Below the pieces are notes generated by a model. It was given only the letters and a program-made list of their open reading frames with translations, did not search any database and had not been told where the DNA came from. 64,000 nucleotides of DNA, taken from Lampris incognitus. Its lineage: Eukaryota; Chordata; Actinopteri; Lampriformes; Lampridae. Positions 1,016-42,666 of the stretch are shown piece after piece (positions within the stretch are counted from its first letter, which is position 1; the number at the start of each line of letters is the position of its first letter). The stretch covers positions 35,915,327-35,979,326 of the forward strand of contig NC_079222.1 in the NCBI RefSeq assembly GCF_029633865.1, read 5' to 3'. The position numbers and the translations under genes were made by a program.

Positions 1016-1959
1016 AACTGTGTTGTAACTGAGGTTAAAGGTCGTATCAGCGATAGCTGCTGGATGTTGTGTTTGTTTATGTTTGTGTTTATGTTCAAAT
1101 AATTTTATATTTTACCTGAGGACCCAGCAACAAGACATGCAGGAGAGACAGGCAGCTCACCCCTACATTCAGTATTATCTGGGGGGGGGGGGGGACCCCA
1201 CACAGTGTTTTGGTGTTGTTATGTGGAGCTAGGCCCACCTGCCCCACATGTTTTGAGGGCAGTTTATGGCGCCTGGGCTGCGTAAAACCACCAGACTTGT
1301 CTTTGTACAGCGCACGTAGGGAATGTGGAGCTAGCAGATCATGAGGAGATATTAGCTGAACATTATAAAAAGTGGGACGTGTTTACAAGACGCCCAGGAC
1401 TGCTGATACAACCTTTAAACTGGACTGACTCTGTCTGTGGACTGTTGGGGTTTATGTGGGGTGGAGGAGAGAGTGGAAACGCCACATGTGCTCACTGCAC
1501 CTGATGGATATGGGCTTTTAGGAAAGGGGTGGATGACAGGGACATTCTTGGTGCCTAAATGTGTGTGTGTCTGTGTGTGTGTGTGTGATACTCCTGGTGA
1601 CATGTTTCATCCACACATCCAAATGGAGGAAAGTGAAAACCCCTCTCTTCTGTTTTCACCAGGAACCTTGTGGACAATCATCTCATCCTCAGAGCTTTGA
1701 GACTAATGGACAAAAAAACAAAACATGCAAAATCTCTCCTCAGAGCTAATTAAGATCTGGAAATATCTGAGGACCTCGAGAGCAACTATGAAAAAGTGCA
1801 GACGTATTAACTTTGATTTGTTTTATCTATTATGTTTTTATTCTCTATCATTTATGTTGCATATTTTATTTTGTTGAAGTTATCTGTCTTACCTCAGGTG
1901 TCTTGTATGTTGAGAGATGCTCACTGTCATGGTTTGTACGCCCTTATGTTTTATAAATG
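1016..1959. other. Intergenic stretch without a recognised gene
   Basis: This region holds a homopolymer G run near 1182-1195 and a short GT microsatellite at 1560-1588. No conserved protein was recognised in either strand; the short open frames here look random. It ends where the segmental duplication begins. Confidence 0.5.
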
Positions 1960-2999
1960 AACCACTTTCAATAAATAAATACAAAATATCATAGGAGTGA
2001 ACAGGCGCCATTTCTAGACCCGGTATCCAGTTCTACTCTATTACATCCATGCAGGGGACAGACTTAAGAAGTCCATCACCAACACAAATGTGGTTTATAC
2101 ACACATACTTGACAAAACAACAACAACAACAACAAAACACGAATGGGACTTTTCTAATTCAGCGTCTTTACTGATGTGAGCACATGAAATTAAAGTACAT
2201 TTAATAAGGAAGTACAGTCCACAGTACTGGAAACATGGCAGACGTGCTGCTGTTACTGGGACATATTAACACATGAGTGAAGCCACTAATACAAACCTAC
2301 ACACATGTTCACCTGCACAACATGTACATGGATGCACACAGGTGAGACACAACCACTTCTGTCTCTCTCTCTGTCACACAGACACACACACACGGAATAA
2401 AACATAGCTTTTATTTACAGGTGATCAGGAACAAAACACCACTTTATTTGACACCACACAGAAACCATCAATAAACAGGAAGCTGACTCGTATATTCTTA
2501 AAGTCGCACATATCATCAACATTTCTCTACAACACACAATCATAAGGTGAGTCCAGTAAATCCTACAGCAGGGAGAACAGGGGCAAGCAGGGCACCATGG
2601 ATGTCCATCCATCCAGCCATTATCTACATGTAGAGCTAACTAGTTTGATTTCCTTCGCCTCGCTCTTCCATAACAACCAGCATCTTTACTAAGACTACAA
2701 AAAGCTTTAAAACTGCCTTTATTTATCAGTCTGTGTGTGTGGGGCTGAATTAACCTTCCTTCACTCTCACTTTGATCAAACCACATCCATCAGCTGCTGC
2801 TTTTTAGCGCCCGTTTGGTCCCCCTGGATAAGAACTGAGACTCTTTTGAAAACCACACAAAGAAATGAAAGTGGTGAAAGAAACCCGTTCACCAAACACG
2901 TCTTCCTCTGAGGACAGCTCTGCCCTTTCCACTCGTCAGCTATTCCCAATCATATATTTCAAACGCAGAACAAATCCTGACACGTAACCGAGATCTTCC

Positions 3000-4694
3000 C
3001 TACCAGACCTTCATCACCTCTGCAACCGCTCCATCACACCACCACAGTCCAAGTCCAGGATAGAGAGGCTGAGTGAAAGTGGTGTTGACTTTGTGGAGGA
3101 GGGTGGTTGTGTCAGAGACGCTGTAGAAAGACAAAACACCTGCCTCGTGGTCCAGGAACACTCCTACTCTGGAGGAGGAAGGACCTGACACCTCTGTTAC
3201 TACACTATTGTGTGTGAACCAGTAACGACCCCCAAAGCAGATTAACATCCAGGACTTGTCATCAGAACCAAATGCTGAGTCACCTGATGATCTCTTGATG
3301 TCTTTGTATGACACTGCTATACCAACACCACCACTTAATGTCACCTCCCAATAACAGCGTCCAGATAAGCCCTCCTTGCACAGCACTTGGCTATAGTCAG
3401 TAAACCTGTCTGAATGAGGAGGATAATTCAAGTCTCGTGGTGTCAGCGTCACCTTCCTGTTGTCCTCTGACAGGGAGACACGTTGATGGGCAGAGTTCAC
3501 ATCCAGCGTGAGAGGACGACAATCTGAAAGAACAGAAGTATTAATGTCAAACTGCTGTCCTTTACTTAATAATTGTTGTATTTGTGTGTTGCAGTGTTTT
3601 GCTTACACAGTAAACAGTCTTCTCTGGTCTCTGGTTCTGGTGGCAGTAAGACATCTACAGCAGACGCTGCAACGAAAAGCACAACAAATACAACACGTTT
3701 ATAAACTAGATGAGACTGCAAGTGTACAGGGAGGTTTTTCTGTGTGTTAGTGTGTGTTTTTCTCTATACTCGATATTCCTTTCAGCTACCTGCAGATGAA
3801 ATCCTGGGCCATGTGTGTGTCATGATGTGTTCTAGTTTGTCTCTGAGGACAGACACAACATCAGTCACATCTCTGAAGTAACGCAGAGGACGCACAACAA
3901 TGCTCGGTGAGTCCAGAGAACCAGCCGGGAGGGAGAGAGACTTGAATTTCTGGACTGAGAGAAAGAGAGACAGAGAAAGACAGACAGAGGAAGAGGAAGA
4001 GAGGAAGAGAGACAGAGGAAGACAGAGAAAGACAGACAGAGAAAGAGAGACAGAGGAAGAGAAAGAGAAAGAGAGAAAGAGAAAGAGAGAAAGAGAAAGA
4101 GGAAGACAGACAGAGGAAGAGGAAGAGAGACAGAGAAAGAGAGACAGAGAAAGAGAGAAAGAGGAAGAGGAAGAGAGACAGAGAAAGAGAGACAGAGAAA
4201 GAGAGAAAGAGGAAGAGGAAGAGAGACAGAGAAAGAGAGACAGAGATAGAGAAATAGAGAAAGAGGATGTAGTTAAATTGTGTGTCTCCAACACAGGACG
4301 TCTCATCAAACACGTCTCTCACTAAACCCTCTCCATCTGGCTGTGTGGGTCAGTGAGCTGACTAGGACACCAAGTACAGATTGTGGCTCATCACCTTTAC
4401 TACAAATCCTTCCCCATCTTTCCTGAAACTCTCCACAGAACAACCAGAAACAGAAGAAGAGTTACGTTTGTACCAAGAATCACTATTATTTCATGAAAGA
4501 TAAAAGTCCCACACAACCATCGGCGTCGCCAGGTCATCTTGCCGGGGCTTCAGCCCCAACGTTTTGAGCGTCGCCCCGAATATCATTTTAAATGTGAGCC
4601 TATGTGAAGCCCGACACCACACGTGACATGTGGGAATGTCCCATAGTCTTCGTCACGTAACAGCCTGTCAGAATAAATGCTGGTCTCTAAACTA

Positions 4695-4731
<37 letters not shown>

Positions 4732-7700
4732 GAAAGATAATTTAATATTCCAGGAAACTAATGTTAACATAAATACATGTATCTTTTTTCTCTCGTCTGG
4801 TACTGTAGCATGTCAATCAATGTTTACCATAGCAGTTGTGAGGTATTCTGCTTCTACTCAATACTACTACTAATTACTAACAACTGCTAATATTTTAACA
4901 CCACAAGTCATAATTAATCTGGGGTTAAACAGCACCTGAAGGAAATGGATGTGGTCGTCAGTGTGTGACAGCTGCTCCAGCTCAGAATCGCTCCTCCTCC
5001 ACTCTTCCATCTCCTCCTGCAGCTGCAGGAGAAGCTCTTCAGCCTGACTGACTGCAGTCTTCTCCTGGGCTCTGATGAGCTCCTTCACCTCGCTGCGCCT
5101 CCTCTCAATGGAGGCCATCAGCTCAGTGAAGATCCTCTCACTGTCCTCCACTGCGGTCTGTGCAGAGCTCTGTCAGTAGAAAGATACAAACACCTGCCTG
5201 GTAAAGAAGCTGCATTTCATTTAAGAAGAAGGACCAGATGGATCCTAAATGTACATGTGACTAATATGAACTTCTATTCCAGTCCTTTCTTCCACCTCTG
5301 ATGCATTTTAAGCTGTGTTAGTATCACACTTTATTTAAATAGATAGTTACAAATCCCTTAGCAAATAAACTCAACCGCTGAAAATAAGACAATAAAACAA
5401 AAAGGGTGAGATAGGGTGAAAGATAAAACGTGGCAAAACACCTTGTGCAACTACTGGGCTGCGAACATTGTAAAACTTTCCCATTGGGCATTTACATATG
5501 AGAATCAACAGGGCACAGATTGGGTTCACATGGAGCTCTTATCCAATCCTTTAGCGGTATTCACCTCTCCACTACCACATAATCCTAACATACAAATAAC
5601 AAACCCGGTGGTTAAAGCTTCACTTAGGATAGGGCTCCAGTTTAGGAGGCATCTTGGATTAAAGCCTGCCAGCGGTCTTTTCCCAGCAGCAAATAATCAG
5701 TTCTTCTCGCCATGTGTGTTAGATAAGGCATTTCAACATTGGCATAGACATGGACTGGTGTTTTTCTGGGATGTATTTAAAGACGGAACATTCACCTCAT
5801 TTGAAACACTTACCAAAGACCATAACATACCCACATCCCATTTTATTAGACACCTTCAAATCCGTAGTTTTGCCAAGAAAGTGTTCCCCTCATTTCCGTA
5901 TCTGCCACCCAGGAGCCAATTAGATGTTATTCTAGAGATGGATCCCTTTGGGGGAAAACGGGTCTCTATAATTTACACACTGATCCAGGGATTGAAACAG
6001 ATATCCTGGGACAAAACAAAGACTGCATGGGGGAGAGAGCTGGGTGTAGAGCTTTCTGAGGAGGCATGGCGGGACAGCTTCCCTCGTATACATACGTCCT
6101 CATTGTGTATACCACATGGCTTCATTCAGTTTAAGGTGCTTCACCGTCTTCACTACTCGGGGGACAAGCTTGCCAGAATCTTTCCCACCACACACCCTGG
6201 CTGTCCGAGGTGCAGCCATAGTCCAGCCTCGGTGGGACACATGTCCTGGGCATGGCCCTCCCTCAACAGTTATTGGGGACAGATATTCAATGTATTCTCA
6301 CATGTCTGTAAACACACCATAACCCCTGATTTTCACACATCCATCTTTGGCATACCGCCCCTTACCTGTAAGGTGGCAACTTTGCCTCATTACTAGCACG
6401 CAGACTGATCCTATTTAACCGGAAGTGGAATAAAGCTGCATCGTTTTTAGTAGTGCATAGTCCTTTTGTTTCTTTTCTTTTCTTTTTTCTTTTTTTGAGC
6501 CTTGGGGGGAGGGGGGTTCCTACACATTTCTTTTTTGTTGTTGTTGTTGTTCGTGTGCCTTGTATACCTGTTCCAAAAAAACTTGAAAATGGAAAATAAA
6601 GTTTTTAACAAAAAAAAAACCACCTTGTGCAAACATTTAGTTCAAGGTGGGACTCTCCTCAGCCAACAGAATATATCTGATCCATCATCTCTGCCAACCC
6701 TCGCTAGGAGAGAGGCCAACATGCTCATTTGTCACTTTACCAGACAAACAACAGCACACACTTTAGTCCATTTTCTTCACCTTCAGATCCTCCACAGCCT
6801 GTCTCAGCTTCTTAATCTCCTTTTCTCTCTCCTTGACTCTCTGCTGGGCTTTCTGGCGACGAACATCCAGCCGTTTCTGGAAGAAAACATACCAAAACAT
6901 TGCAGCTGGGCAAAGGGAGAATAAAGAGGGAAGCATTTCGGTGTCGGTCAGCAGTTTTTAAGGTAACACAGGGAGCCTCGGCTTTTAGATGTGCTGAATA
7001 TTCTGTGTTGAGAAACTGAAGGTTTTCCATATACAAACCAAACCTATTCTGCATGTAACCTCACAGGACTGCCTCTTGTTTGTTGGTGATAAACAAGTTG
7101 TGGTGGTCCTACCTGTATCTCAGCCCTTTCTGCTGCAGCCGACACTGTATCGTGGCCCTTATGTTCATCCATGGTACACAGATAGCAGATACACTGCTGG
7201 TCTGTACGACAGTACACCTCCATCAGCTTGTCATGACTGGAGCACATCTTCTCCTGCAGTCGGGCCGTGGCAGAGACCAGCTTGTGCTTCTTCAGCACAG
7301 GAACAGTGTAGTGAGGCTGGAGGTGAGTGGAGCAGTAGGAGGCCAGGCACGCTGAACAGGTCATAAGGGCTTTGTGGGGTCGAGTCCCTGTGCAGAAATC
7401 ACAGGCCACATCTGTGGGGCCAGCATAGGACACATCTGCAGAGGGAGAGGCCTGCTGGTTCCCTGTTGTCTTCAGATTCTCCACAATCTGAAATATTAAA
7501 ATCCTGTCTTAAAGGAATTATCTGCTGTGGTCATGATAAAATGGACTACTGCTACGATCACTACTTATGGTGATAATAATGATAAGAAAGAAAATCAACA
7601 TCACTACAATGTTGATGTTAAGTTAGAATGAAGTGAGGAACAAAACAGAGAAACATGTCAGTAATAAATAAGATATGGGAAAACAGTAATATAAGAATAG

Positions 7701-8570
7701 GAGTAAAATAGTGTGGAGAACATATATGAAAATAACAAAATGAAAGCCACTTTATTTGACATTGTATTCTTACAACGAATTGTATTCTCACAATGAATGT
7801 GTTGTCTGCATTTAACCCATCCTATTGTCTAGGTGAAGTGGACGACTCCAGTTCTTCTTTCCATCGCCTTGCTCAGGGGCACAGACAGGAGTATGAACCC
7901 TAACACGCATGTCTTTTTGATGGTGGGAGGAAACCGGAGCACCCAGAGGAAACCCACACAGACATGGGGAGACCATGCAAAGTCCACACAGAGAGGACCT
8001 GAGAAGGCCTGGGGTTCGAACCCGGGGCCTTCTTGTTGTGAGGCAACAGTGCTAACCACTGGGCCACCATATATTCAAAATATATGTAAAATGAGTTGAG
8101 ATAGGAATGAAATCAACAGAATAGCCCAAGGATCTAGAACCTCATTTGGGATTGTCCTCCTGGGGTAACAGAACTGAAGGCTAGTCCAACACCTCAATAA
8201 TAATATTACATTTCAATGGATTGAAGCTACAAACTACTAAAATGTGACCACGAGTATTTCTTTTGCCAGCAGCACAATAACTGCCACATCTGCCTCTTAT
8301 AAATGACTTTTCTCTTCCTGTCAGTCTCACCTGAGCCAGCATGGTGTTCTTCACAAGGGCAGGCCTCGGACTGAAGGTCTGTCTGCACTGAGGACAGCTG
8401 TACACTCCCTTCTCTTCATCCTTGTCCCAGCAGCTCTCTATACAGTCTCTACAGTAACTGTGTCCACACTGAAGACCGACTGGCTGGTTGAGGAGGTCCA
8501 GACAGATTGAACAACACAACTGATCTCTGTCCAGCAACAACCCCTGCTGCTGCTGCTGCTGCTCAGCCAT
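3000..8570 (-). CDS. TRIM family E3 ubiquitin ligase, copy A (RING, two B-boxes, coiled coil, PRY-SPRY)
   Basis: Seven coding exons join in frame to 562 codons: 8331-8570, 7113-7487, 6781-6876, 4936-5169, 3790-3949, 3607-3666 and 3000-3523, all with AG/GT introns. Internal exon sizes of 96, 234 and 60 bp are the usual TRIM ones. The start MAEQQQQ lies in a good context (aaaATGG). The C3HC4 RING uses C20, C23, C35, H37, C40, C43, C59 and C62. Two B-box zinc fingers lie at about 108-195, the coiled coil at about 205-315 and PRY-SPRY at about 389-562. Family knowledge: RING TRIMs ubiquitinate targets bound by SPRY; fish TRIM25/TRIM16-like and finTRIM proteins are expanded and often antiviral. 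No lesion was seen. Possible minus-strand poly(A) signals lie at 2443-2448 and 2410-2415. Product family is firm; target and exact orthology are unknown. Confidence 0.9.
3957..4265 (-). repeat. Pyrimidine (CTCTTTCTCTGTCTC-type) array abutting the TRIM exon 5 acceptor
   Basis: On the minus strand this is about 310 bp of almost pure CT with regular G positions. It ends within about 10 bases of the 3' splice site ccag|AAATTC at 3950/3949. It serves as the polypyrimidine tract of intron 4. The copy B counterpart is about 540 bp long. Confidence 0.85.
4700..4728. repeat. GT microsatellite in TRIM intron 4
   Basis: A run of about 14 GT units. The same site in copy B (28999-29097) carries about 50 units. 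Confidence 0.9.
5451..6620 (+). mobile_element. 5'-truncated L1-like LINE, reverse-transcriptase C-terminal end, in TRIM intron 3 (copy A)
   Basis: Flanked by a 12-bp target-site duplication (CACCTTGTGCAA at 5439-5450 and 6621-6632), with an A-rich tail before the right copy. The open frame, ending near 6396, contains the C-terminal region of an L1/Tx1-like ORF2: the stretch [20 protein letters not shown], then a CPRC zinc-knuckle-like pair and a final cysteine-poor tail. The polymerase catalytic domain is absent because of 5' truncation, so it cannot move by itself. It lies antisense to the TRIM gene, inside the intron between exons 3 and 4. Copy B has the same insertion, so it predates the duplication. 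Confidence 0.88.
7749..8070 (-). mobile_element. tRNA-headed SINE (family 1) in TRIM intron 1, copy A
   Basis: Read on the minus strand it starts with a tRNA-like head (GGTGGCCCAGTGGTTAGCAC, then a B-box-like GGTTCGAACCCC) followed by a body shared with 49047-49427 and 58451-58829. The tail on the + strand side is the AT-rich part around 7749-7800. The corresponding copy in B is 32078-32399. Confidence 0.7.
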
Positions 8571-9342
8571 TTTACTGACAGCCTCTCTCACACTGACGGA
8601 AAAGAGCAGACAACAGTTTCGTTTTCTCTGAAAACACGCTGGAGACTGAATGGGAGGGACTTCCTTGTTCTGTCCAGAGGGAGGAGCTTTACAGGAGAAC
8701 AGGGGGGAGCAATGAGTTACAAAGTCCAACACCCACAAACATGTTGTTGATACACACCGACAAAACACAACAGACAGGAAGTTACAGACAAGAAGTGTAA
8801 TTAAGACATTAAAATGGTCTTAAGGAGTCCGTTATATTCACGTGCCCAACGTTTATCTGTCCCCGTGCAGATCTTTTATTGTTGCTCTATAAAGACGGTC
8901 ACTTATCACTGATCAGCTTAATCAATAATGCTGCTCATGCCATGTGTCAGTACTGTCTAATGGGCTTAAGCAACGGTAGTAATGACACACTGTGTACTGT
9001 ATGTAAACATTACAATATTTTGTTTATCACAAACATTGACTATATGATTATAACTACTTTAATTACATTATATATTATTAAATAATTATTTTATTGACGT
9101 CATTATATTACTGTTAAAATATTATCATATTTACTATCATATTTATTACTGTTTTCATATTATTTACTATTATTATTGTGATAAAGAAATAGCCTTCATT
9201 TAGCAATTAAAAGATAAATGTTGTGTAACTTACATTTCCTGGTTGTGATGTGTGAAACAATAGGAAATCTTTTGTTCTTAGAGAATTACGTGTTGTATAT
9301 ATATTGTATTTAAATGAAAAAGGACACTTTTGTTTTGAGTCA
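8571..9342. other. Sequence upstream of TRIM copy A
   Basis: The first 250 bases hold the 5' untranslated and presumed promoter region of the TRIM gene. I could not place a TATA box or an interferon-response element with confidence. From about 9000 it becomes very AT-rich with no recognisable coding sequence. It is nearly identical in copy B (32903-33678). Confidence 0.45.
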
Positions 9343-9356
9343 TATTAATCGAATTT

Positions 9357-9781
9357 TTTATTTTATTTTTATAAATATATTTCTAGTTTTTCCCCTGGCT
9401 CACGTTTCCACAGGAAGGAGATAGTTGTAACACCAGCTTCCTTCAAACTCGTGTCGGCTGCTCTCGCCATTTTACACGCTGAAGCCTCGCATGGATTGCA
9501 TCACCTTCAGGCCGCGAAGGAGGCGTAGGGAGAATGCTTTCGGTTGCTTGGCGACAGGCGCCCGGGTGGGCCAGAGGGGTCGCTGGAGAACGACGAGTTC
9601 CCGAACAGTACACCGATCTACACCCACTATCCCTCGGGTAAGGGTGGCCTAATGAAGGCCTGACCCCGTGGACGCTCTGGCCGTGACCGGTTACGGCGAG
9701 TCTGGGATACCAACCTCCCAGCCACGTGACGAGCGGACTGCAAGAACGGCGGTTTATTCCGCTCCGCCACCAGAGCGGCCC
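9357..9781 (-). mobile_element. tRNA-derived SINE (family 3), copy A
   Basis: Flanked by a 14-bp direct repeat (ATTAATCGAATTTT at 9343-9356 and 9782-9795). On the minus strand it begins with a tRNA-like head containing an exact A box (TGGCGGAGCGG), then a looser B box (GGTTGGTATCC), and ends in an A-rich tail next to the left repeat. That is the structure of a complete SINE insertion. The head is GC-rich against an AT-rich neighbourhood. Confidence 0.75.
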
Positions 9782-9895
9782 ATTAATCGAATTTTATTAT
9801 TAGGAAATAAAAACAGTGCAATAATAAAATCAGTGCAATCAGTGGGTATTAATTTAGATCAAATAAACATATTGTAACGTACATGAATCAGTAGA

Positions 9896-10020
9896 CACGT
9901 TGGCCCTTGGCTAACGGGTCGAACCCTTTAGTCGACTGGTTAACGTTGTCGCTTGCAGAGTGGGAGATACGGGTTCGCGTCCCGGCTGTGGCGACGGTCT
10001 CCCAGACTGCCCCCCGTATT
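9896..10020 (+). mobile_element. tRNA-derived SINE fragment (family 4), copy A
   Basis: Begins with a leader like that of the 46.5-kb hairpin (CACGTTGGCCCTTGGCTAAC) and contains an A box (TAGTCGACTGG) and a B box (GGTTCGCGTCC) about 45 bases apart. Not an intact tRNA gene, because the stems do not pair and the leader is part of the repeat. Confidence 0.6.
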
Positions 10021-10940
10021 CACTACAATATGTATACATGTAAACAAAAAATCAGTTATCTATTATCTATCTATCTAATCTATTATTATTAGAGTAATAT
10101 ATACAAGTACACAATATAATGTGCTCATAATCAGGGTGGAGCATCTTTCTTTTTGCCATACCTCTGGGCTTCAAGTGCAGCCCTCCACTCAGCCAGAGTC
10201 ATGGTGGCTGTGGCCTGGCAGTACCAATTACCAAAGTCCTGCCTGTGGGTGGCAGGGTGCCGCTCCCTCTGCCACTGCTTGCAGGGTGTCGAGAATCACC
10301 TTCGTGGTCCTCGTCCCCGAGTCCGTTGATGTGAAGAAAACAGCCACCACGTCTTAGGAGATTAAAACTATTTTATTGAGTACAGATCTGGAGACACACT
10401 CTTTGTGTGTGAGCTTCTTTATATGCTAAACCTCCCTTGTTCATTCATCACACATGACCTTGATTTTCCTGTCCACTATGTTTGGTCAATGCTCCCTTTC
10501 ATGGTTGAGCTTTAGGGAGTGCTCATCCTGTCCGGACCTGTAACTCTTAAGCGGGGGCCCTCCTTGCACCAGACACGGTATCTCTCCCAAGGCCTCAGAG
10601 GAGGGGAACCCCACACATTCCGTGCGAGGCATGCAATATATTTTATCGACATGAATGTGTCTTTCTTCACCCTCTGTTCTGGTTGCACACATTGGTTACA
10701 TACAGAGTAATACAAATAATACCTTGGTTACATACATAGTGATACAAATACACTCGGGTTATATGTAATATCAATCAACAAGGGGATGGTGTCGCTCTTC
10801 CTTGTGTAGTTCCTTTTCTTTCTTTCTTTTGTTGCCACTCTGCTCCTCCTCTCGTCTTTTCTTCTTGTGATAGTGCTGGGTGGTATAAGGCACATCTGCA
10901 GGTGGTCCTGCAGGTCTGGAAAGAACCACAGGAGCCAGAG
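10021..10940 (-). other. Gene-free stretch with Pol II-like signals on the minus strand (possible solo LTR or decayed exon)
   Basis: On the minus strand a TATA-like CATATAAAG at about 10418-10426 is followed some 50 bases on by CAATAAAATA (about 10370-10380), the spacing seen in a retroviral-type LTR. I could not define TG...CA ends, a primer-binding site or a target duplication, so the LTR reading is only an inference. No known protein was recognised. Copy B carries the same stretch at about 34356-35276. Confidence 0.3.
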
Positions 10941-11928
10941 ATTGGGAGGCAGGCAGGAGAGGTTGGGAGGCAGGCAGGAGAGGTTGGGGTGCAGGTTGGA
11001 GAGGTTGGGACACAGACAGGAGAGGTTGGGGTGCAGGCTGGAGAGGTTGGGGTGTAGGTTGGAGAGGTTGAGTGCAGGGTGGAGAGGTGGGGACACAGGC
11101 TGGAGAGGTTGGTGTGCAGGTTGGAGAGGTTGGGACACAGACAGGAGAGGTTAGGGTGCAGGTTGGAGAGGTGGGGACACAGGCTGGAGAGGTTAGAGTG
11201 CAGGTTGGAGAGGTGGGGACACAGACAGGAGAGGTTGGGGTGCAGGCTGGAGAGGTTGGGGTGCAGGTTGGAGAGGTTGGGGTGCAGGTTGGAGAGGTGG
11301 GGACACAGGCTGGAGAGGTTGGGTGCAGGTTGGAGAGGTTGGGGTGCAGGTTGGAGAGGTTGGAGTGCAGGGTGGAGAGGTGGGGACACAGGCTGGAGAG
11401 GTTGGTGTGCAGGTTGGAGAGGTTGGGACACAGACAGGAGAGGTTGGGGTGCGGGTTGGAGAGGTGGGGACACAGGCTGGAGAGGTTGGGGTGCAGGTTG
11501 GAGAGGTGGGGACACAGGCTGGAGAGGTTCGGGTGCAGGTTGGAGAGGTTGGGACACAGACAGGAGAGGTTGGGGTGCAGGCTGGAGAGGTTGGGGTGCA
11601 GGTTGGAGAGGTTGGGGTGCAGGGTGGAGAGGTGGGGACACAGGCTGGAGAGGTTGGTGTGCAGGTTGGAGAGGTGGGGACACAGGCTGGAGAGGTTGGT
11701 GTGCAGGTTGGAGAGGTGGGGACACAGGCTGGAGAGGTTGGTGTGCAGGTTGGAGAGGTTGGCACACAGACAGGAGAGGTTGGGGTGCGGGTTGGAGAGG
11801 TGGGGACACAGGCTGGAGAGGTTGGGGTGCAGGTTGGAGAGGTGGGGACACAGGCTGGAGAGGTTAGGGTGCAGGTTGGAGAGTTGGGGACACAGGCTGG
11901 AGTGGTTGGGGTGCAGGTTAGAGAGGTT
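10941..11928. repeat. 21-bp minisatellite, copy A (about 47 units)
   Basis: The unit is of the type GGTTGGAGAGGTTGGGGTGCA with variants (TGGGGACACAGGC, TGTGCAGG). Because 21 is a multiple of three and the unit has no stop in any of the six frames, long open frames run through it on both strands: VGEVGVQ and RLERLGC on +, PTSPTCT, QPLQPAP and NLSNLHP on -. Occasional 20-bp units shift the frame, so the frame is not conserved, which argues against a selected protein. Confidence 0.93.
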
Positions 11929-12251
11929 GAGGGGCTGGTTTTGGTTGCCTGGAGAGGCGGTGTGAGAGCTATAAGGACAGGCAAGCTAAGACCAGCAGAT
12001 GGAGCCACTGGCAGGCTATGTCTCTGCTTCCGTTGGGACGTCCCTGCAGTGTTAGGGGGCAGAACAAAGACATGGGGATTTGCCACACTGCCGCTAGGCA
12101 CACAGGGTTGGCCTTTCCTCTTAACTGCAGTAGGCAGGCTCTCTGGGCCTCAAGTTGGTGGTGTTTGGAGTAGAGATGCCTTGCTCCAGCACACTCTTCT
12201 TCTGCGTTCTTTCACGTCCGCAGTAGCTAAAAATATTCCAAGCAGTATGTT

Positions 12252-13105
12252 TTATATACATTACATTACAGTCATTTAGCCGACGCTTCTATCCCAAGCC
12301 ACTTGCAATAAGTGCATCGTTTAGCATGGGAAATCAGGAGAACTACTAGTCATCAGAGGTCATAAGGGCATCTTCTCTCTAAACAAGCATTAAAGAGCAA
12401 AACCAGTGCTAAAGTAAAAGTGCAAGAAAGAGATTTTTTTTTTAAATGAGTGAATACAATAAGTGCTAAGAACAAGTAACAGGGTAGTAGTTCTTAAAGA
12501 GGTGAGTTTTCAACCTGCGCCGAAAGACATCAGTGGGGAGTTCGTTCCGCCACTGTGGGGCCAGGACAGAACCGAGCCGCGACCGGGTCGATCGGCAGCA
12601 GGGGCCTCTGAGCGACGGGGCAACCAGCAGAGCAAAGTGGTCGGGCGGGGGTGTAGGGCTTGACCATGGCCTGGAGATAGGAAGGAGCTGTTCCTTTCAC
12701 TGCCCTGTAGGCTAGCACCAGAGTCCTAAACTGGATGCGAGCAGCTCCTGGGAGCCAGTGTAGGGACATGAGAAGGGGAGGTGTGTGGGAGAACTTAGGG
12801 CGGTTGAACACCAGACGAGCTGCAGCTTTCTGAACAAGCTCCAGAGGTCTGATGGAGGACGCCGGGGCGCCAGCAAGGAGGGAGTTGCCGTAGTCCAGCC
12901 GGGAGATGACCAGAGCCTGGATGAGCACCTGTGCCATCTCGTCGGTGAGGAATGGGCGAATCCTCCTGATGTTATAGAGGAGAAATCTGCAGGAGCGAGC
13001 AACCCATGCATCGTTTGCAGCAAACGACAGTTGGTCGTCCAGGATCACACCCAGATTCCTCACAGTCCGAGTTGGCGTCACCACGGCGTTGTCAGACCGG
13101 TCGCC
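12252..13105 (-). mobile_element. L2-type LINE 3' end, copy A
   Basis: The minus-strand frame from 13084 to 12530 encodes the C-terminal part of an L2/CR1-group reverse transcriptase (NLGVILDDQLSF, ARSCRFLLYNIRRIRPFL, ISRLDYGNSLLAG, AAARLVF, LHWLP). A 3' untranslated tail follows and ends near 12252 in ATGTAATGTA-type repeats after the AAATGACTGTAATG motif typical of fish L2 ends. The 5' part with endonuclease and polymerase active site is missing, so it is a dead truncated copy. It is shared with copy B. Confidence 0.85.
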
Positions 13106-14083
13106 TCCTCTTTACGCGTCTATGGACACGCTTCTGCAAGTCACTTATACGTGTTCATTGACACGTATCTCGCAGATGCCGCTAGGGGGCGCCCTGTAGC
13201 CTACTAGGTCTGTCATGACCAGGGTCATGACGCAATAGAATGTCAAAAATATTGAACAAAGATGGCGGAGCGATGCGAAGCGAAGCGAATCTTCTTAATA
13301 TGTGAGTCGTAGCTAAATTTGCTATCTTCAGATTATTTTTTGACTCATATTAACGTTATATGCGAGTGGATACTATATTTACATTGAATGAATGTAAGCT
13401 AAATGAACGAAGTGTCAATGCAATCTCAATAAATTAGTCCCCACAATTTTGCATGCGATTTACCGAAAAACAATCGGAGTCTGGTAATGAGGAGTTTGTA
13501 ATCCGGTAAAATGGCGCGCAAATCTCGCTATGGGGCAACAGCCAACTCTATGAAAAGGATGTCTAAATTAACATTTTACTTAAATATGTACTAGATGTAA
13601 CATTACCTTGTGTGGTGGAGAAATTGTGGTGAATCCCGACCGATACAGCTCTGCCTAGACCTAGAAGACAGGATTGCGCCCCCAGTGGCCAGAAGACGGG
13701 ATTGCGGCCCCAGTGGCAACTAATACGTGTCCATATACACGTATTTCGCTCTCGCAAAAACGTGTCCTCTGACACGTACGTATTGTGATGTAGTGTTGTT
13801 TACATGCGCTAGAACCCGCTAACAAACAGCGAGCGGGGCGTTACAGTGGCGGACCTTATGATCAAATTACCAAAAACAAAACTTGCCAGTCGCGATATAA
13901 AGTTTCAAATCAAGGGCCACACATGTCGCCCTTTGCTCAGCGATTGATTCAGAACCGCCCAACTAATCTCTCTCCAAATACAACGGCCTCAACATCAGTG
14001 CACAACACAACGCATAGGCCTACGTTCAAAAGGTAAAGAGGGCGCTCTTAAATAAAGTATAACCAGTGCAGCACAGCAGTCAC
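13106..14083. other. About 1 kb of non-coding sequence at the right end of copy A, with repeated small palindromes
   Basis: Contains palindromic motifs of the form TACGTGT..ACACGTA near 13152-13172, 13730-13752 and 13765-13785, and AT-rich sequence between them. No protein was recognised. The homologous stretch in copy B is interrupted by an RTE LINE at 39525-42650; the empty target site here is at about 13490-13505. It may be a decayed non-autonomous DNA element, but ends were not defined. Confidence 0.4.
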
Positions 14084-14273: not shown

Positions 14274-14389
14274 TGGAACCCAACGTGAGTCTTACGTTGC
14301 CTGTTGCTTGAACAGCGAGCGTTTATTTTTTTACTAAGCGTAGCTAGAAGTTTCAGTTAGCCTGCTAGCATTAGCATCGAGCCAAGACG

Positions 14390-15244: not shown

Positions 15245-15251
15245 GAGGGAT

Positions 15252-25240: not shown

Positions 25241-25716
25241 CGGATCACTTTTAGCGACCTAGACGACATCTATGCACCAGACTAACACTTGGATGCTCAT
25301 ACAGCGTCTTCCTCCGTGTCCAGCCTATCCGTGCGTCGCCACGCAGCTCCAGCTAATAGCAAAAGTTAACAGTATTTCAATGCGATACTCGCGCTCGCAC
25401 TAGCGAAGCAAACGAAACCACCTACGTCATCACGTTACTGGTGTCCAAAGCGTCACCGCCTATGAGCGCTTGATAAGGTTTTAACATGAATCCGTTCTGC
25501 ACAGCAGTAGAGCTCATCCGCCACGAGCGCTCCGTCCACGCTGCTCGTGCTCTCCCTCTCTCGCGCCTTTCGTTTCTTCGTGCGCGTTCATGTGTCTTAA
25601 AGGTGCAGTCAACATTTCTACCCGCTACATTAGTATAGCAGATTTATTAAAATATTAGTTTTTTCTTTTCAATATGGAGAATATCATATGATACTGTAGT
25701 GGTTATGGGGATACAT
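25241..25716. other. Spacer between the hAT fragment and copy B
   Basis: GC-rich first half without recognisable coding sequence, then AT-rich sequence including a piece near 25600-25640 that resembles a common fish repeat (TTAAAGGTGCAGTCAACATT). Ends at the start of copy B. Confidence 0.4.
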
Positions 25717-27079
25717 AACCACTTTCAATAAATAAATAAAAAATATCATTGGAGTGAACAGGCGCCATTTCTAGACCCGGTATCCAGTTCTACTCTATTA
25801 CATCCATGCAGGGGACAGAGTTAAAAAGTCCATCACCAACACAAGTGTTGTTTATACACACATACTTGACAAAACAACAACAACAACAACAACAAAACAC
25901 AAATGGGACTTTTCTAATTCAGCGTCTTTACTGGTGTGAGCACATGAAATTAAAGTACATTTAATAAGGAAGTACAGTCCACAGTACTGGAAACATGGCA
26001 GACGTGCTGCTGTTATTGGGACATATTAACACATGAGTGGAGCCACTAATACAAACCTACACACATGTTCACCTGCACAACATGTACATGGATGCACACA
26101 GGTGAGACACAACCACTTCTGTCTCTCTCTCTGTCACACAGACACACACACACGGAATAAAACATAGCTTTTATTTACAGGTGATCAGGAACAAAACACC
26201 ACTTTATTTAACACCACACAGAAACCATCAATAAACAGGAAGCTGACTCGTATATTCTTAAAGTCGCACATATCATCAACATTTCTCTACAACACACAAT
26301 CATAAGGTGAGTCCAGTAAATCCTACATGTGAAGCTAAAGGGGATTCCAGAGAGGAAGAGAGAGAAGGGGTAAACTAATAGCAGGGTGAAGTCTTGTAAC
26401 ACCTCATCTGATCCATCGAGGTTTGTGCTGTTCTGATGTGGATGTTATCATTCAGCGTCTATCTATTAAACATCAGCCACACACAATCTTCCATCTGGGT
26501 GTTTACACACCATGTTTTTACCTCCCTGTCTGTCTGAAACACATTCTGCTGATCTGAGCAACAACAAACAAGCTGTGAGTCGCTAAACAACATCCATTTA
26601 ACGTGTACTCCTTTCACACGTTGTGATTTTCACACTGTTATCTGACAAGAATGAAAAGAAAACAGCATCCTGACTACACAATGTGCTGCAGGATGAAGAA
26701 GTTACAATATCCATCATCACTAGTTTGATTTCCTTCGCCTCGCTCTTCCATAACAACCAGCATCTTTACTAAGACTACAAAAAGCTTTAAAACTGCCTTT
26801 ATTTATCAGTCTGTGTGTGTGGGGCTGAATTAACCTTCCTTCACTCTCACTTTGATCAAACCACATCCATCAGCTGCTGCTTTTTAGCGCCCGTTTGGTC
26901 CCCCTGGATAAGAACTGAGATTCTTTTGAAAACCAGACAAAGAAATGAAAGTGGTGAAAGAAACCCGTTCACCAAACACGTCTTCCTCTGAGGACAGCTC
27001 TGCCCTTTCCACTCGTCAGCTATTCCCAATCATATATTTCAAACGCAGAACAAATCCTGACACGTAACCGAGATCTTCC

Positions 27080-32902
<5,823 letters not shown>

Positions 32903-33692
32903 TTTACTGACAGCCTCTCTCACACTGACGGAAAAGAGCAGACAACAGTTTCGTTTTCTCTGAAAACACGCTGGAGACTGAATGGGAGGGACTTCCTTGT
33001 TCTGTCCAGAGGGAGGAGCTTTACAGGAGCACAGGGGTGAGCAATGAGTTAAAAAAGTTCAACACCCACAAACATGTTGTTTATATACACACCGACAAAA
33101 CACAACAGACAGGAAGTTACAGACAAGAAGTGTAATTAAGACATTAAAATGGTCTTAAGGAGTCCGTTATATTCACGTGCCCAACGTTTATCTGTCCCCG
33201 TGCAGATCTTTTATTGTTGCTCTATAAAGACGGTCACTTATCACTGATCAGCTTAATCAATAATGCTGCTCATGCCATGTGTCAGTACTGTCTAATGGGC
33301 ATAAGCAACGGTAGTAATGACACACTGTGTACTGTATGTAAACATTACAATATTTTGTTTATCACAAACATTGACTATATGATTATAACTACTTTAATTA
33401 CATTATATATTATTAAATAATTATTTTATTGACGTCATTATATTACTGTTAAAATATTATCATATTTACTATCATATTTATTACTGTTTTCATATTATTT
33501 ACTATTATTATTGTGATAAAGAAATAGCCTTCATTTAGCAATTAAAAGATAAATGTTGTGTAACTTACATTTCCTGGTTGTGATGTGTGAAACAATAGGA
33601 AATCTTTTGTTCTTAGAGAATTACGTGTTGTATATATATTGTATTTAAATGAAAAAGGACACTTTTGTTTTGAGTCATATTAATCGAATTTT

Positions 33693-34116
33693 TTATTTTA
33701 TTTTTATAAATATATTTCTAGTTTTTCCCCTGGCTCACGTTTCCACAGGAAGGAGATAGTTGTAACACCAGCTTCCTTCAAACTCGTGTCGGCTGCTCTC
33801 GCCATTTTACACGCTGAAGCCTCGCATGGATTGCATCACCTTCAGGCCGCGAAGGAGGCGTAGGGAGAATGCTTTCGGTTGCTTGGCTACAGGCGCCCGG
33901 GTGGGCCAGAGGGGTCGCTGGAGAACGACGAGTTCCCGAACAGTACACCGATCTACACCCACTATCCCTCGGGTAAGGGTGGCCTAATGAAGGCCTGACC
34001 CCGTGGACGCTCTGGCCGTGACCGGTTACGGCGAGTCTGGGATACCAACCTCCCAGTCACGTGACGAGCGGACTGCAAGAACGGCGGTTTATTCCGCTCC
34101 GCCACCAGAGCGGCCC
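33693..34116 (-). mobile_element. tRNA-derived SINE (family 3), copy B
   Basis: Orthologous to 9357-9781, with the same 14-bp flanking repeats at 33679-33692 and 34117-34130. Confidence 0.75.
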
Positions 34117-34232
34117 ATTAATCGAATTTTATTATAAGGAAATAAAAAACAGTGCAATAATAAAATCAGTGCAATCAGTGGGTATTAATTTAGATCAAAT
34201 AAACATATTGTAACGTACATGAATCAGTAGAC

Positions 34233-34355
34233 ACGTTGGCCCTTGGCTAACGGGTCGAACCCTTTAGTCGACTGGTTAACGGTGTCGCTTGCGGAGTGGG
34301 AGATACGGGTTCGCGTCCCGGCTGTGGCGACGGTCTCCCAGACTGCCCCCCGTAT
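34233..34355 (+). mobile_element. tRNA-derived SINE fragment (family 4), copy B
   Basis: Orthologous to 9896-10020; A and B boxes retained. Confidence 0.6.
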
Positions 34356-35276
34356 TCACTACAATATGTATACATGTAAACAAAAAATCAGTTATCTATT
34401 ATCTATCTATCTAATCTATTATTATTAGAGTAATATATACAAGTACACAATATAATGTGCTCATAATCAGGGTGGAGCATCTTTCTTTTTGCCATACCTC
34501 TGGGCTTCAAGTGCAGCCCTCCACTCAGCCAGAGTCATGGTGGCTGTGGCCTGGCAGTACCAATTACCAAAGTCCTGCCTGTGGGTGTCAGGGTGCCACT
34601 CCCTCTGCCACTGCTTGCAGGGTGTCGAGAATCACCTTCGTGGTCCTCGTCCCCGAGTCCGTTGATGTGAAGAAAACAGCCACCACGTCTTAGGAGATTA
34701 AAACTATTTTATTGAGTACAGATCTGGAGACACACTCTTTGTGTGTGAGCTTCTTTATATGCTAAACCTCCCTTGTTCATTCATCACACATGACCTTGAT
34801 TTTCCTGTCCACTATGTTTGGTCAATGCTCCCTTTCATGGTTGAGCTTTAGGGAGTGCTCATCCTGTCCGGACCTGCAACTCTTAAGCGGGGGCCCTCCT
34901 TGCACCAGACACGGTATCTCTCCCAAGGCCTCAGAGGAGGGGAACCCCACACATTCCGTGCGAGGTATGCAATATATTTTATCGACATGAATGTGTCTTT
35001 CTTCACCCTCTGTTCTGGTTGCACACATTGGTTACATACAGAGTAATACAAATAATACCTTGGTTACATACATAGTGATACAAATACACTCGGGTTATAT
35101 GTAATATCAATCAACAAGGGGATGGTGACACTCTTCCTTGTGTAGTTCCTTTTCTTTCTTTCTTTTGTTGCCACTCTGCTCCTCCTCTTGTCTTTTCTTC
35201 TTGTGATAGTGCTGGGTGGTATAAGGCACATCTGCAGGTGGTCCTGCAGGTCTGGAAAGAACCACAGGGGCCAGAG
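34356..35276 (-). other. Gene-free stretch with Pol II-like signals, copy B
   Basis: Matches 10021-10940, including the TATA-like CATATAAAG and the CAATAAAATA motif on the minus strand. The same uncertainty applies. Confidence 0.3.
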
Positions 35277-37976
35277 ATTGGGAGGCAGGCAGGAGAGGTT
35301 TGGAGGCAGGCAGGAGAGGTTGGGGTGCAGGCAGGAGAGGTTGGGAGGCAGGCAGGAGAGGTTGGTGTGCAGGTTGGAGAGGTTGGGACACAGACAGGAG
35401 AGGTTGGGGTGCGGGTTAGAGAGGTGGGGACACAGGCTGGAGAGGTTAGGGTGCAGGTTGGAGAGGTGGGGACACAGGCTGGAGAGGTTAGGGTGCAGGT
35501 TGGAGAGGTGGGGACACAGACAGGAGAGGTTGGGGTGCAGGCTGGAGAGGTTGGGGTGTAGGTTGGAGAGGTTGAGTGCAGGGTGGAGAGGTGGGGACAC
35601 AGGCTGGAGAGGTTGGGGTGCAGGCTGGAGAGGTTGGGGTGTAGGTTGGAGAGGTTGAGTGCAGGGTGGAGAGGTGGGGACACAGGCTGGAGAGGTTGGG
35701 GTGTAGGTTGGAGAGGTTGAGTGCAGGGTGGAGAGGTGGGGACACAGGCTGGAGAGGTTGGTGTGCAGGTTGGAGAGGTTGGGACACAGACAGGAGAGGT
35801 TGGGGTGCGGGTTAGAGAGGTGGGGACACAGGCTGGAGAGGTTGGGGTGCAGGTTGGAGAGGTGGGGACACAGGCTGGAGAGGTTAGGGTGCAGGTTGGA
35901 GAGGTGGGGACACAGACAGGAGAGGTTGGGCTGCAGGCTGGAGAGGTTGGGGTGCAGGTTGGAAAGGTTGGGGTGCAGGTTGGAGAGGTGGAGACACAGG
36001 CTGGAGAGGTTGGGTGCAGGTTGGAGAGGTTGGGGTGCAGGTTGGAGAGGTTGGAGTGCAGGGTGGAGAGGTGGGGACACAGGCTGGAGAGGTTGGTGTG
36101 CAGGTTGGAGAGGTGGGGACACAGGCTGGAGAGGTTAGGGTGCAGGTTGGAGAGGTGGGAACACAGACAGGAGAGGTTGGGGTGCAGGCTGGAGAGGTTG
36201 GGGTGCAGGTTGGAAAGGTTGGGGTGCAGGTTGGAGAGGTTGGAGTGCAGGGTGGAGAGGTGGGGACACAGGCTGGAGAGGTTGGTGTGCAGGTTGGAGA
36301 GGTTGGGACACAGACAGGAGAGGTTGGGGTGCGGGTTGGAGAGGTTGGGACACAGACAGGAGAGGTTGGGGTGCAGGTTGGAGAGGTGGGGACACAGACA
36401 GGAGAGGTTGGGAGGCAGGCAGGAGAGGTTGGGGTGCAGGTTGGAGAGGTTGGGACACAGACAGGAGAGGTTGGGGTGCAGGCTGGAGAGGTTGGGGTGT
36501 AGGTTGGAGAGGTTGAGTGCAGGTTGGAAAGGTTGGGGTGCAGGTTGGAGAGGTGGAGACACAGGTTGGAGAGGTTGAGTGCAGGTTGGAGAGGTGGGGA
36601 CACAGGCTGGAGAGGTTGGGGTGCAGGCTGGAGAGGTTGGGGTGTAGGTTGGAGAGGTTGAGTGCAGGGTGGAGAGGTGGGGACACAGGCTGGAGAGGTT
36701 GGTGTGCAGGTTGGAGAGGTTGGGACACAGACAGGAGAGGTTGGGGTGCGGGTTAGAGAGGTGGGGACACAGGCTGGAGAGGTTAGGGTGCAGGTTGGAG
36801 AGGTGGGGACACAGGCTGGAGAGGTTAGGGTGCAGGTTGGAGAGGTGGGGACACAGACAGGAGAGGTTGGGGTGCAGGCTGGAGAGGTTGGGGTGTAGGT
36901 TGGAGAGGTTGAGTGCAGGGTGGAGAGGTGGGGACACAGGCTGGAGAGGTTGGGGTGCAGGCTGGAGAGGTTGGGGTGTAGGTTGGAGAGGTTGAGTGCA
37001 GGGTGGAGAGGTGGGGACACAGGCTGGAGAGGTTGGTGTGCAGGTTGGAGAGGTTGGGACACAGACAGGAGAGGTTGGGGTGCGGGTTAGAGAGGTGGGG
37101 ACACAGGCTGGAGAGGTTGGGGTGCAGGTTTGAGAGGTGGGGACACAGGCTGGAGAGGTTAGGGTGCAGGTTGGAGAGGTGGGGACACAGACAGGAGAGG
37201 TTGGGGTGCAGGCTGGAGAGGTTGGGGTGCAGGTTGGAAAGGTTGGGGTGCAGGTTGGAGAGGTGGAGACACAGGCTGGAGAGGTTGGGTGCAGGTTGGA
37301 GAGGTTGGGGTGCAGGTTGGAGAGGTTGGAGTGCAGGGTGGAGAGGTGGGGACACAGGCTGGAGAGGTTGGTGTGCAGGTTGGAGAGGTTGGGGTGCAGG
37401 TTGGAGAGGTTGGAGTGCAGGGTGGAGAGGTGGGGACACAGGCTGGAGAGGTTGGTGTGCAGGTTGGAGAGGTTGGGACACAGACAGGAGAGGTTGGGGT
37501 GCGGGTTGGAGAGGTGGGGACACAGGCTGGAGAGGTTGGGGTGCAGGTTGGAGAGGTGGGGACACAGGCTGGAGAGGTTGGGTGCAGGTTGGAGAGGTTG
37601 GGACACAGACAGGAGAGGTTGGGGTGCAGGTTGGAGAGGTGGGGACACAGGCTGGAGAGGTTGGGTGCAGGTTGGAGAGGTTGGGACACAGACAGGAGAG
37701 GTTGGGGTGCAGGTTGGAGAGGTTGGGGTGCAGGTTGGAGAGGTCGGAGTGCAGGTTGGAGAGGTGGGGACACAGGCTGGAGAGGTTGGTGTGCAGGTTG
37801 GAGAGGTTGGGACACAGACAGGAGAGGTTGGGGTGCGGGTTGGAGAGGTGGGGACACAGGCTGGAGAGGTTGGGGTGCAGGTTGGAGAGGTGGGGACACA
37901 GGCTGGAGAGGTTGGGGTGCAGGTTGGAGAGGTGGGGACACAGGCTGGAGTGGTTGGGGTGCAGGTTAGAGAGGTT
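35277..37976. repeat. 21-bp minisatellite, copy B (about 129 units)
   Basis: Same unit as 10941-11928 but 2.7 kb long. Blocks of several units recur (for example the order VGEVGTQTGEVG, VRVREVGTQ on +), so part of the growth was by duplication of multi-unit blocks. A 1012-codon open frame on the minus strand (38149-35111) runs through it only because no frame of the unit holds a stop; the reading switches between PTSPTCT, QPLQPAP and NLSNLHP phases. Confidence 0.93.
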
Positions 37977-38299
37977 GAGGGGCTGGTTTTGGTTGCCTGG
38001 AGAGGTGGTGTGAGAGCTATAAGGACAGGCAAGCTAAGACCAGCAGATGGAGCCACTGGCAGGCTATGTCTCTGCTTCAGTTGGGACGTCCCTGCAGTGT
38101 TAGGGGGCAGAACAAAGACATGGGGATTTGCCACACTGCCGCTAGGCACACAGGGTTGGCCTTTCCTCTTAACTGCAGTAGGCAGGCTCTCTGGGCCTCA
38201 AGTTGGTGGTGTTTGGAGTAGAGATGCCTTGCTCCAGCACACTCTTCTTCTGCGTTCTTTCACGTCCGCAGTAGCTAAAAATATTCCAAGCAGTATGTT

Positions 38300-39130
38300 T
38301 TATATACATTACATTACAGTCATTTAGCCGACGCTTCTATCCCAAGCCACTTGCAATAAGTGCATCGTTTAGCATGGGAAATCAGGAGAACTACTAGTCA
38401 TCAGAGGTCATAAGTGCATCTTCTCTCTAAACAAGCATTAAAGAGCAAAACCAGTGCTAAAGTAAAAGTGCAAGAAAGATATTTTTTTTTTAAATGAGTG
38501 AATACAATAAGTGCTAAGAACAAGTAACAGGGTAGTAGTTCTTAAAGAGGTGAGCTTTCAACCTGCGCCGAAAGACATCAGTGGGGAGTTCGTTCCGCCA
38601 CTGTGGGGCCAGGACAGAACCGAGCCGCGACCGGGTCGATCGGCAGCAGGGGCCTCTGAGCGACGGGGCAACCAGCAGAGCGAAGTGGTCGGGCGGGGGT
38701 GTAGGGCTTGACCATGGCCTGGAGATAGGAAGGAGCTGTTCCTTTCACTGCCCTGTAGGCTAGCACCAGAGTCTTAAAGCCAGTGTAGGGACATGAGAAG
38801 GGGAGGTGTGTGGGAGAACTTAGGGCGGTTGAACACCAGACGAGCTGCAGCTTTCTGAACAAGCTCCAGAGGTCTGATGGCGGACGCCGGGGCGCCAGCA
38901 AGGAGGGAGTTGCCGTAGTCCAGCCGGGAGATGACCAGAGCCTGGATGAGCACCTGTGCCATCTCGTCGGTGAGGAATGGGCGAATCCTCCTGATGTTAT
39001 AGAGGAGAAATCTGCAGGAGCGAGCAACCCATGCATCGTTTGCAGCAAACGACAGTTGGTCGTCCAGGATCACACCCAGATTCCTCACAGTCCGAGTTGG
39101 CGTCACCACGGCGTTGTCAGACCGGTCGCC
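38300..39130 (-). mobile_element. L2-type LINE 3' end, copy B
   Basis: Orthologous to 12252-13105. A deletion removes about 23 bases near 38779 and joins LHWL to FKTLVLAYRAVKG out of register, so this copy is further decayed. Confidence 0.85.
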
Positions 39131-39524
39131 TCCTCTTTACGCGTCTATGGACACGCTTCTGCAAGTCACTTATACGTGTTCATTGACACGTATCTCGCAG
39201 ATGCCGCTAGGGGGCGCCCTGTAGCCTACTAGGTCTGTCATGACCAGGGTCATGACGCAATAGAATGTCAAAAATATTGAACAAAGATGGCGGAGCGATG
39301 CGAAGCGAAGCGAATCTTCTTAATATGTGAGTCGTAGCTAAATTTGCTATCTTCAGATTATTTTTTGACTCATATTAACGTTATATGCGAGTGGATACTA
39401 TATTTAAATTGAATGAATGTAAGCTAAATGAACGAAGTGTCAATGCAATCTCAATAAATTAGTCCCCACAATTTTGCATGCGATTTACCGAAAAACAATC
39501 GGAGTCTGGTAATGAGGAGTTTGT
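39131..39524. other. Non-coding right-hand part of copy B, left of the RTE
   Basis: Matches 13106 to about 13505 of copy A. The last 16 bases (39509-39524) are the left target-site duplication of the RTE insertion. Confidence 0.6.
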
Positions 39525-42650: not shown

Positions 42651-42666
42651 GTAATGAGGAGTTTGT

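Follow-up and report, generated by a model that had tools for sequence, protein, structure and literature searches.

Across 12 copies of a TRIM gene in this genome, apparently that of a fish to judge from the first-pass annotation and the kinship of the domain, the PRY-SPRY domain changes its amino acids several times faster than silent and noncoding sites change, mostly at a small set of codons. Two of these genes, copies A and B, lie in the window, by which we mean the whole 64-kb stretch of DNA analyzed here (C15: 35915327-35979326), and they belong to a tandem array of at least eight copies on C15. We consider it very likely that copies A and B are open members of a tandem finTRIM/TRIM25-like array in which the PRY-SPRY domain has been diversified by positive selection and recurrent point mutation, possibly together with short-tract exchange between copies.

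Copies A and B and the array around them

Rebuilt from splice sites and reading frames, copies A and B are seven-exon TRIM genes on the minus strand, each with 562 codons open from start to stop and with GT/AG at all introns (Table 1). In the exons of copy A, Pfam recognized a RING, a B-box and a TRIM coiled coil; PRY and SPRY were matched in both copies. These domains stand in order in a single open gene, which is the class IV TRIM layout. NCBIfam gave no match for the genes, and a tblastn search with the copy A domain as query found no further B30.2 exon in the window. For the whole domain, the closest TRIM in the PDB is TRIM25. The best PDB sequence matches of the copy A PRY-SPRY exon are two stonefish toxin subunits, followed by TRIM25, TRIM14 and TRIM16. 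Two small differences between the copies were also seen. The RING exon reads VGLQCGH in copy A and VTLHCGH in copy B; we take the copy B motif to be nearer the usual RING pattern, and copy A may be the changed one. Near the acceptor of exon 5, an additional AG lies upstream in copy A (CTCAG, 3950-3959); copy B lacks it and has CTCAC there (28027-28036).

Table 1. Positions in the window of the two TRIM genes, their exons, the hypervariable stretch and the duplicated units
Feature	Positions	Strand	Basis
Copy A codons 469-492, hypervariable stretch	3213..3284	-	alignment, codon comparison, predicted model
Copy B, matching 24 codons	27290..27361	-	alignment, codon comparison
Copy A exon 7, PRY-SPRY/B30.2, 524 bp including stop	3000..3523	-	Pfam, splice sites
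Copy B exon 7, PRY-SPRY/B30.2, 521 bp including stop	27080..27600	-	Pfam, splice sites
Copy A exon 6, 60 bp	3607..3666	-	splice sites/frame
Copy A exon 5, 160 bp	3790..3949	-	splice sites/frame
Copy A exon 4, 234 bp, TRIM coiled coil PF25600	4936..5169	-	splice sites, Pfam
Copy A exon 3, 96 bp	6781..6876	-	splice sites/frame
Copy A exon 2, 375 bp, B-box PF00643	7113..7487	-	splice sites, Pfam
Copy A exon 1, 240 bp, start codon and RING	8331..8570	-	splice sites, Pfam
Copy B exon 6, 60 bp	27684..27743	-	splice sites/frame
Copy B exon 5, 160 bp	27867..28026	-	splice sites/frame
Copy B exon 4, 234 bp	29306..29539	-	splice sites/frame
Copy B exon 3, 96 bp	31107..31202	-	splice sites/frame
Copy B exon 2, 375 bp	31439..31813	-	splice sites/frame
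Copy B exon 1, 243 bp	32660..32902	-	splice sites/frame
Duplicated unit with copy A	1953..14083	.	comparison of the two units
Duplicated unit with copy B, enlarged by LINE and longer minisatellite	25711..43250	.	comparison of the two units

A DNA search of the 1.48-Gb assembly with 911 bases around copy B exon 7 gave at least 41 matches; 40 of 62 candidates were scored, and the counts are lower bounds. At 87-100% identity there were at least 22 pieces at 21 or more loci, with at least eight on C15, four on C124, five on C3 and four on C26. The C15 copies, at least eight, all share a single orientation and are spread over about 208 kb; among the matches listed, six of them lie in line at lower coordinates than copies A and B, with a spacing of 24-34 kb. 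Exon 7 is open in 16 of the 17 C15, C124 and C3 copies and broken in one C3 copy. A search for the SPRY family as a whole gave at least 147 matches in the genome (150 of 227 candidates scored). Among the matches listed, copy A exon 7 is closest to L018 on the small contig C124 (96.9%) and copy B exon 7 to L013, about 84 kb away (97.3%), while A and B are 95.6% identical to each other in this exon. In the exon 7 tree, copy B groups with C15_5 (support 81); a tree of noncoding sequence did not fix the order within the array (support 5-86 among array copies). Beyond the genome, no relatives were found in viral contigs or phages with copy A as query, or in bacterial and archaeal genomes with copy B as query, and a literature text search for six short motif peptides had no match.

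The contig C124 is 95 kb long and carries four copies (L015-L018). In exon 7, L018 differs by 0.6% from C15_2, and the other three are at least 2.9% from any C15 copy; C124 may be another haplotype or a missing piece of the array. In three copies (L009, L011 and L018), 84 bases of exon 3 were matched instead of 96, a difference that would keep the frame.

Could copies A and B be two haplotypes of one gene misplaced in tandem? Their noncoding divergence of 1.28% is, in our judgement, within reach of heterozygosity. Both copies, however, lie in a stretch without Ns (the sole N run is at 44183-44382), a LINE with a 16-bp target duplication is present in the copy B unit alone, and six further copies stand in line beside them, so that we give this idea next to no credence.

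The window holds several other elements. The LINE of the copy B unit (39525-42650) contains an open frame of 876 codons with matches to endonuclease and reverse transcriptase families. A minisatellite of units of about 42 bp occupies about 1.0 kb in the A unit (10937-11940) and 2.7 kb in the B unit (35273-37988); several of its frames are open, one over 1028 codons. The region between the units contains, at 14384-18025 and 20945-21829, a retroelement that matches reverse transcriptase, RNase H and integrase zinc-binding domains, as well as an open frame in which a C-type lectin domain was recognized. Satellite arrays of about 34 bp (50938-53053 and 54248-55616) flank two inverted arms (53052-53594 and 53710-54251), each of roughly 540 bp, 98.5% identical and about 115 bp apart.

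Replacement and silent change in exon 7

The first-pass annotation had reported that copies A and B differ at 10 positions within 72 bases of exon 7 and that all eight codons affected change the amino acid. Alignment of 2639-3962 with 26719-28045 and comparison of the codons reproduced this exactly. In 5000 shuffles of the 123 differences over 8418 aligned sites, none placed 10 in any 72-site window. A second 72-site window with 10 differences (6571-6642) was rejected, as it is an A-rich indel stretch of intron 3 with an unreliable alignment; the noncoding divergence between the units is 86/6732 sites (1.28%) with this window and 76/6660 (1.14%) without it. At 1.14% neutral divergence, less than one replacement change would be expected in the 24-codon stretch (hereafter the loop), against the 10 observed; its replacement rate of 0.175, over about 57 sites, is about 15 times the noncoding 0.0114 (P = 3.8e-9). 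That none of the differences is silent is weak evidence by itself because the loop has only about 14 silent sites, and we dropped it as a main argument: Among 10 random changes, silent codons would be absent with a probability of 0.12-0.19. The signal in the pair is the density of replacement differences, not the absence of silent ones.

The comparison with noncoding divergence, which had been proposed as a check, was carried out with site counts for exon 7 and for exons 1-6. In exon 7, 19.5 replacement differences over 394.5 sites stand against 1.5 silent differences over 121.5 sites, a ratio of 4.1. With counts rounded to 20 and 2, the replacement rate is 4.4 times that of noncoding sequence (P = 3.1e-7) and the silent rate about equal to it (1.4 times, P = 0.41); a binomial test of replacement against silent change reaches only P = 0.027. 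Beside the loop, differences cluster at codons 415-433 (seven) and at codons 548-554 (three and a one-codon indel). Exons 1-6 have 13 replacement and three silent changes. Since their replacement rate is about that of noncoding sequence (ratio 1.25, P = 0.27), they too are without strong conservation. In the pair, exon 7 does not differ significantly from them by a Fisher test (P = 0.63), because they are likewise poor in silent changes.

The case becomes stronger when more copies are compared. Our array rates were obtained from 12 copies (eight on C15 and four on C124), to which a 16-copy set adds four from C3; the broken C3 copy (L048) and the four C26 copies (L045-L047 and L049) were left out of the codon counts. 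Neutral rates were taken from the 12 C15 and C124 copies only, because the noncoding sequence of the C3 and C26 copies is poorly aligned or missing: The 3' flank of two C3 copies is misaligned (13-21%), and introns are wholly or partly missing in three of the four C3 and all four C26 copies. Noncoding sequence here means introns 5 and 6 and the start of the 3' flank. The rates are counts that treat sites as independent, the sequences are paralogues within one genome, and the copies are non-independent if conversion shuffles them.

Among the 12 copies, the mean noncoding difference is 0.92% (range 0.35-1.6%). Silent sites of exon 7 differ by 0.98% and replacement sites by 4.83%; in the loop, the values are 0.32% (counted through intermediate codons) and 13.1%. 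The amino acid varies at 14 of the 24 loop codons, and synonymous variants occur at none of them and at only four codons in the whole of exon 7; comparable synonymous change in the same stretch, which the first-pass annotation had said would refute its reading, was thus not seen. Minimal-change counts gave 65 replacement to 4 silent changes for exon 7 (P = 8.9e-5), 28 to 0 for the loop (P = 0.0022) and 37 to 4 for exon 7 outside the loop (P = 0.018). In the 16-copy set, the corresponding counts are 100 to 15, 30 to 2 and 70 to 13, the pairwise replacement/silent ratios are 2.45, 4.9 and 2.0, and the 16 copies have 16 different loop proteins.

Within the 12 copies, 27 codons hold 89% of the replacement differences of exon 7. 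Replacement sites differ there by 27%, an excess that is partly a selection artefact because the codons were picked for their high replacement diversity, and silent sites by 3.0%, a value that comes from few silent sites counted through intermediate codons. The other codons of exon 7 are young and little changed, with 0.65% replacement against 0.62% silent difference and so no sign of stronger constraint. In exons 2-5, compared in 9-12 copies each, replacement differences are 1.1-2.2% and silent differences 0-2.0%; in exons 4 and 5, replacement (1.2%) exceeds silent (0 and 0.4%) but is near the neutral level. The replacement excess is strongest in the loop, spread through exon 7, and small or absent elsewhere. 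By these counting methods, the replacement rate is above both the silent and the noncoding rate and the excess is concentrated in part of the domain, the pattern taken to mark diversifying selection on a B30.2 domain. The earlier proposal of positive selection on the B30.2 domain finds support, on firmer ground from the 12 copies than from the pair, but each of the two scenarios it offered is too simple, and in place of a fresh, isolated pair there are two array members.

Relaxed constraint or decay after duplication might be suspected from the near-noncoding replacement rate of exons 1-6 in the pair and from the C3 copy that is broken in exon 7. Relaxation, however, should not raise the replacement rate to 15 times that of noncoding sequence, and both genes are open along their whole length. 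If a mutation hot spot lay behind the loop instead, synonymous variants would be expected, and the 12 copies have none there. We regard relaxation, decay and a hot spot as highly improbable.

Origin of the loop states

Five of the eight loop codons that differ between copies A and B reflect changes that are found nowhere else in the 16-copy set: the A state is private at codons 475 and 476, and the B state at 469, 483 and 487. At codons 472, 481 and 492, both states are present in the 14 other copies and could have arisen by recurrent mutation, exchange or descent. Outside the loop, the B states at codons 415, 418, 432 and 433 are all present together in C15_5, a sharing that may be due to descent or conversion.

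The joint presence of these four states in C15_5 is one of the points that speak for gene conversion, by which the loop of A or B would have been imported as a block from a diverged TRIM. Tests on nucleotides point the same way, with PHI at P = 0.006-0.015 in 12 copies, 0.005-0.025 in 11 and 0.001-0.08 in 16, and a run-length test at P = 0.10, 0.03 and 0.03, respectively. When codons are the characters, PHI in the 12 copies is 0.0125 between adjacent codons and 0.13-0.34 over wider spans; in the 16 copies, it is 0.025 between adjacent codons, 0.0285 at k = 3 and 0.165-0.47 otherwise. These values count against block import. The first-pass annotation had suggested a search of other TRIM genes for the copy B loop. 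Among the 19 places that match each loop (its own included), none other is identical; over 91 bases, the closest other match is 94% for A, on C3, and 97% for B, in C15_5. A tract from a diverged TRIM should also carry silent changes, and the loop has no synonymous variants in 12 copies. Because no identical donor is among these places and silent sites in exon 7 have diverged no further than the noncoding sequence, block import of the whole loop is unsupported, and we think it very unlikely. Short-tract exchange is at most possible, with weak support from these tests.

Alternatively, the loops could be old and diverse, with concerted evolution homogenizing their flanks so that the genes look young. 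The noncoding sequence is indeed homogeneous among the 12 copies, and 12 of the 25 codons that vary in both the C15/C124 and the C3 groups share at least two codon states between them (one of the 12 silently). The silent sites of exon 7, however, are as young as the flanks, and unless the exchanged tracts were only a few bases long, old loops should bring linked silent differences with them, where exon 7 has just the four codons with synonymous variants. Old loops are thus improbable in our view, and we retain diversifying selection on recurrent point mutations as the better account.

The variable residues and known counterparts

Where do the variable residues sit? In the 16 copies, codons 481, 483, 485, 488, 490, 492, 495, 497 and 499 vary; codons 484, 489, 491, 493, 494 and 496 are invariant; and codons 482, 486, 487 and 498 have one deviating copy each (482 is L in 15 of 16). 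An AlphaFold2 model, made from two window sequences, places strands at codons 479-485, 488-493 and 496-500 and a two-residue turn at 486-487; the model is poor, with a mean pLDDT of 47.2 and 62-66 over residues 91-150 (codon = residue number + 389). In a hairpin of this kind, the pairs 485/488, 483/490 and 481/492 would face one another on one side. Because the variable residues alternate along the predicted hairpin, the stretch probably consists of a single sheet face together with a loop. The term loop, used since the first-pass annotation, is apt for codons 469-475, which precede the hairpin, and not for 479-485 and 488-493, which this low-confidence model predicts to be strands. From alignment to TRIM25, codons 469-475 would form the last part of the first variable loop in the SPRY domain, the selection hot spot of finTRIMs and TRIM5. 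W381 and W383 of TRIM21 would, presumably, line up with codons 483 and 485.

We propose that the B30.2 domain, judging from its domain family, would be the target-recognizing part of the protein. Recurrent point mutations fixed by diversifying positive selection would make the differences between copies, with a possible contribution from short-tract exchange. Variable residues sit on a probable hairpin face (481/483/485 opposite 492/490/488), in the loop at 469-475 and in the patches at 415-433 and 551-554, which may together form one contact surface; the remainder of the protein is near-identical. Target recognition is the function we infer for this variable patch, and copies may be kept because their patches bind different things. 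A more far-reaching idea is that the copies together form a germline repertoire of modules for recognition, in which one TRIM chassis is present at least 12 times with some two dozen freely changing codons whose states are mixed across copies and contigs. Its design would be comparable to that of leucine-rich-repeat receptors, in which variable residues also alternate. We put this forward tentatively, as something that may well prove wrong.

Several features of the array recall published B30.2 systems. Positive selection on fish TRIM B30.2 domains, which had been brought up as prior knowledge, is indeed on record for zebrafish finTRIMs (van der Aa et al. 2009, PMC2657112). Predicted variable loops hold fourteen of the sites reported in that study, which also found one recombination point and a strongest site class (M2a) with dN/dS of 2.99 over 15.6% of sites; the variable loop is named there as a selection hot spot of finTRIM and TRIM5. 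The array genes are like finTRIMs in their one-orientation clusters, in their exons of 96, 234 and 60 bp, and in the selection on B30.2, with finTRIM sites concentrated in the beta2-beta3 loop (PMC2657112). They differ in that finTRIMs have the RING and B-boxes in a single exon of 555-594 bp, whereas here there are two (240 and 375 bp in copy A, 843 bp apart). Exon 5 has 160 bp here and 154 bp in finTRIMs, and the last exon 521-524 bp here and about 545 coding bp there (PMC2657112). We do not file the genes as finTRIMs, because the single RING/B-box exon is absent. Unlike the families of the finTRIM study, the C15 and C124 copies are alike enough for the excess to be set against near-identical introns (PMC2657112). 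In our literature search for positively selected B30.2 beta-strand residues in finTRIMs, only PMC2657112 came up, the excerpts of which do not use the word "alternating"; this is no proof of novelty.

In zebrafish NLR-B30.2 genes, positive selection was found and gene conversion was proposed to spread and recombine substitutions, with a median dN/dS of 1.4-1.7 within groups 1, 2a and 3a and of 0.5 in 3b (PMC4852459). The array resembles them in the positive selection on B30.2; unlike them, it has the domain on a TRIM, a replacement/silent value of about 5 and weak evidence of conversion (PMC4852459). The zebrafish btr and trim35/hltr genes, other TRIM families than the array genes, also have positively selected B30.2 sites, several in the beta2-beta3 loop, with recombination detected in btr and none in trim35/hltr (PMC3137616). 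Like the array genes, young primate TRIM genes are recent duplicates under positive selection; they show a phylogenetic breakpoint and 10 selected residues, in the coiled coil and B30.2 among others (PMC3228819). In TRIM21, whose PRYSPRY is an antibody Fc receptor, W381 and W383, which are two positions apart, are among the residues that contact Fc (PMC6722209).

Diversifying selection is therefore an already known mechanism for fish TRIM B30.2 domains, and the array is a sharp new case, a particularly clear one because its neutral divergence is so low. With about 1% noncoding difference against 13% replacement difference in the loop and no synonymous variants there, the selected residues can almost be read by eye; in more diverged families, they are harder to pick out. 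The pattern suggests that selection acts on a strand face as well as on loops. The array also supplies natural variants that share a single backbone and are ready for use in the search for binding partners of these domains.
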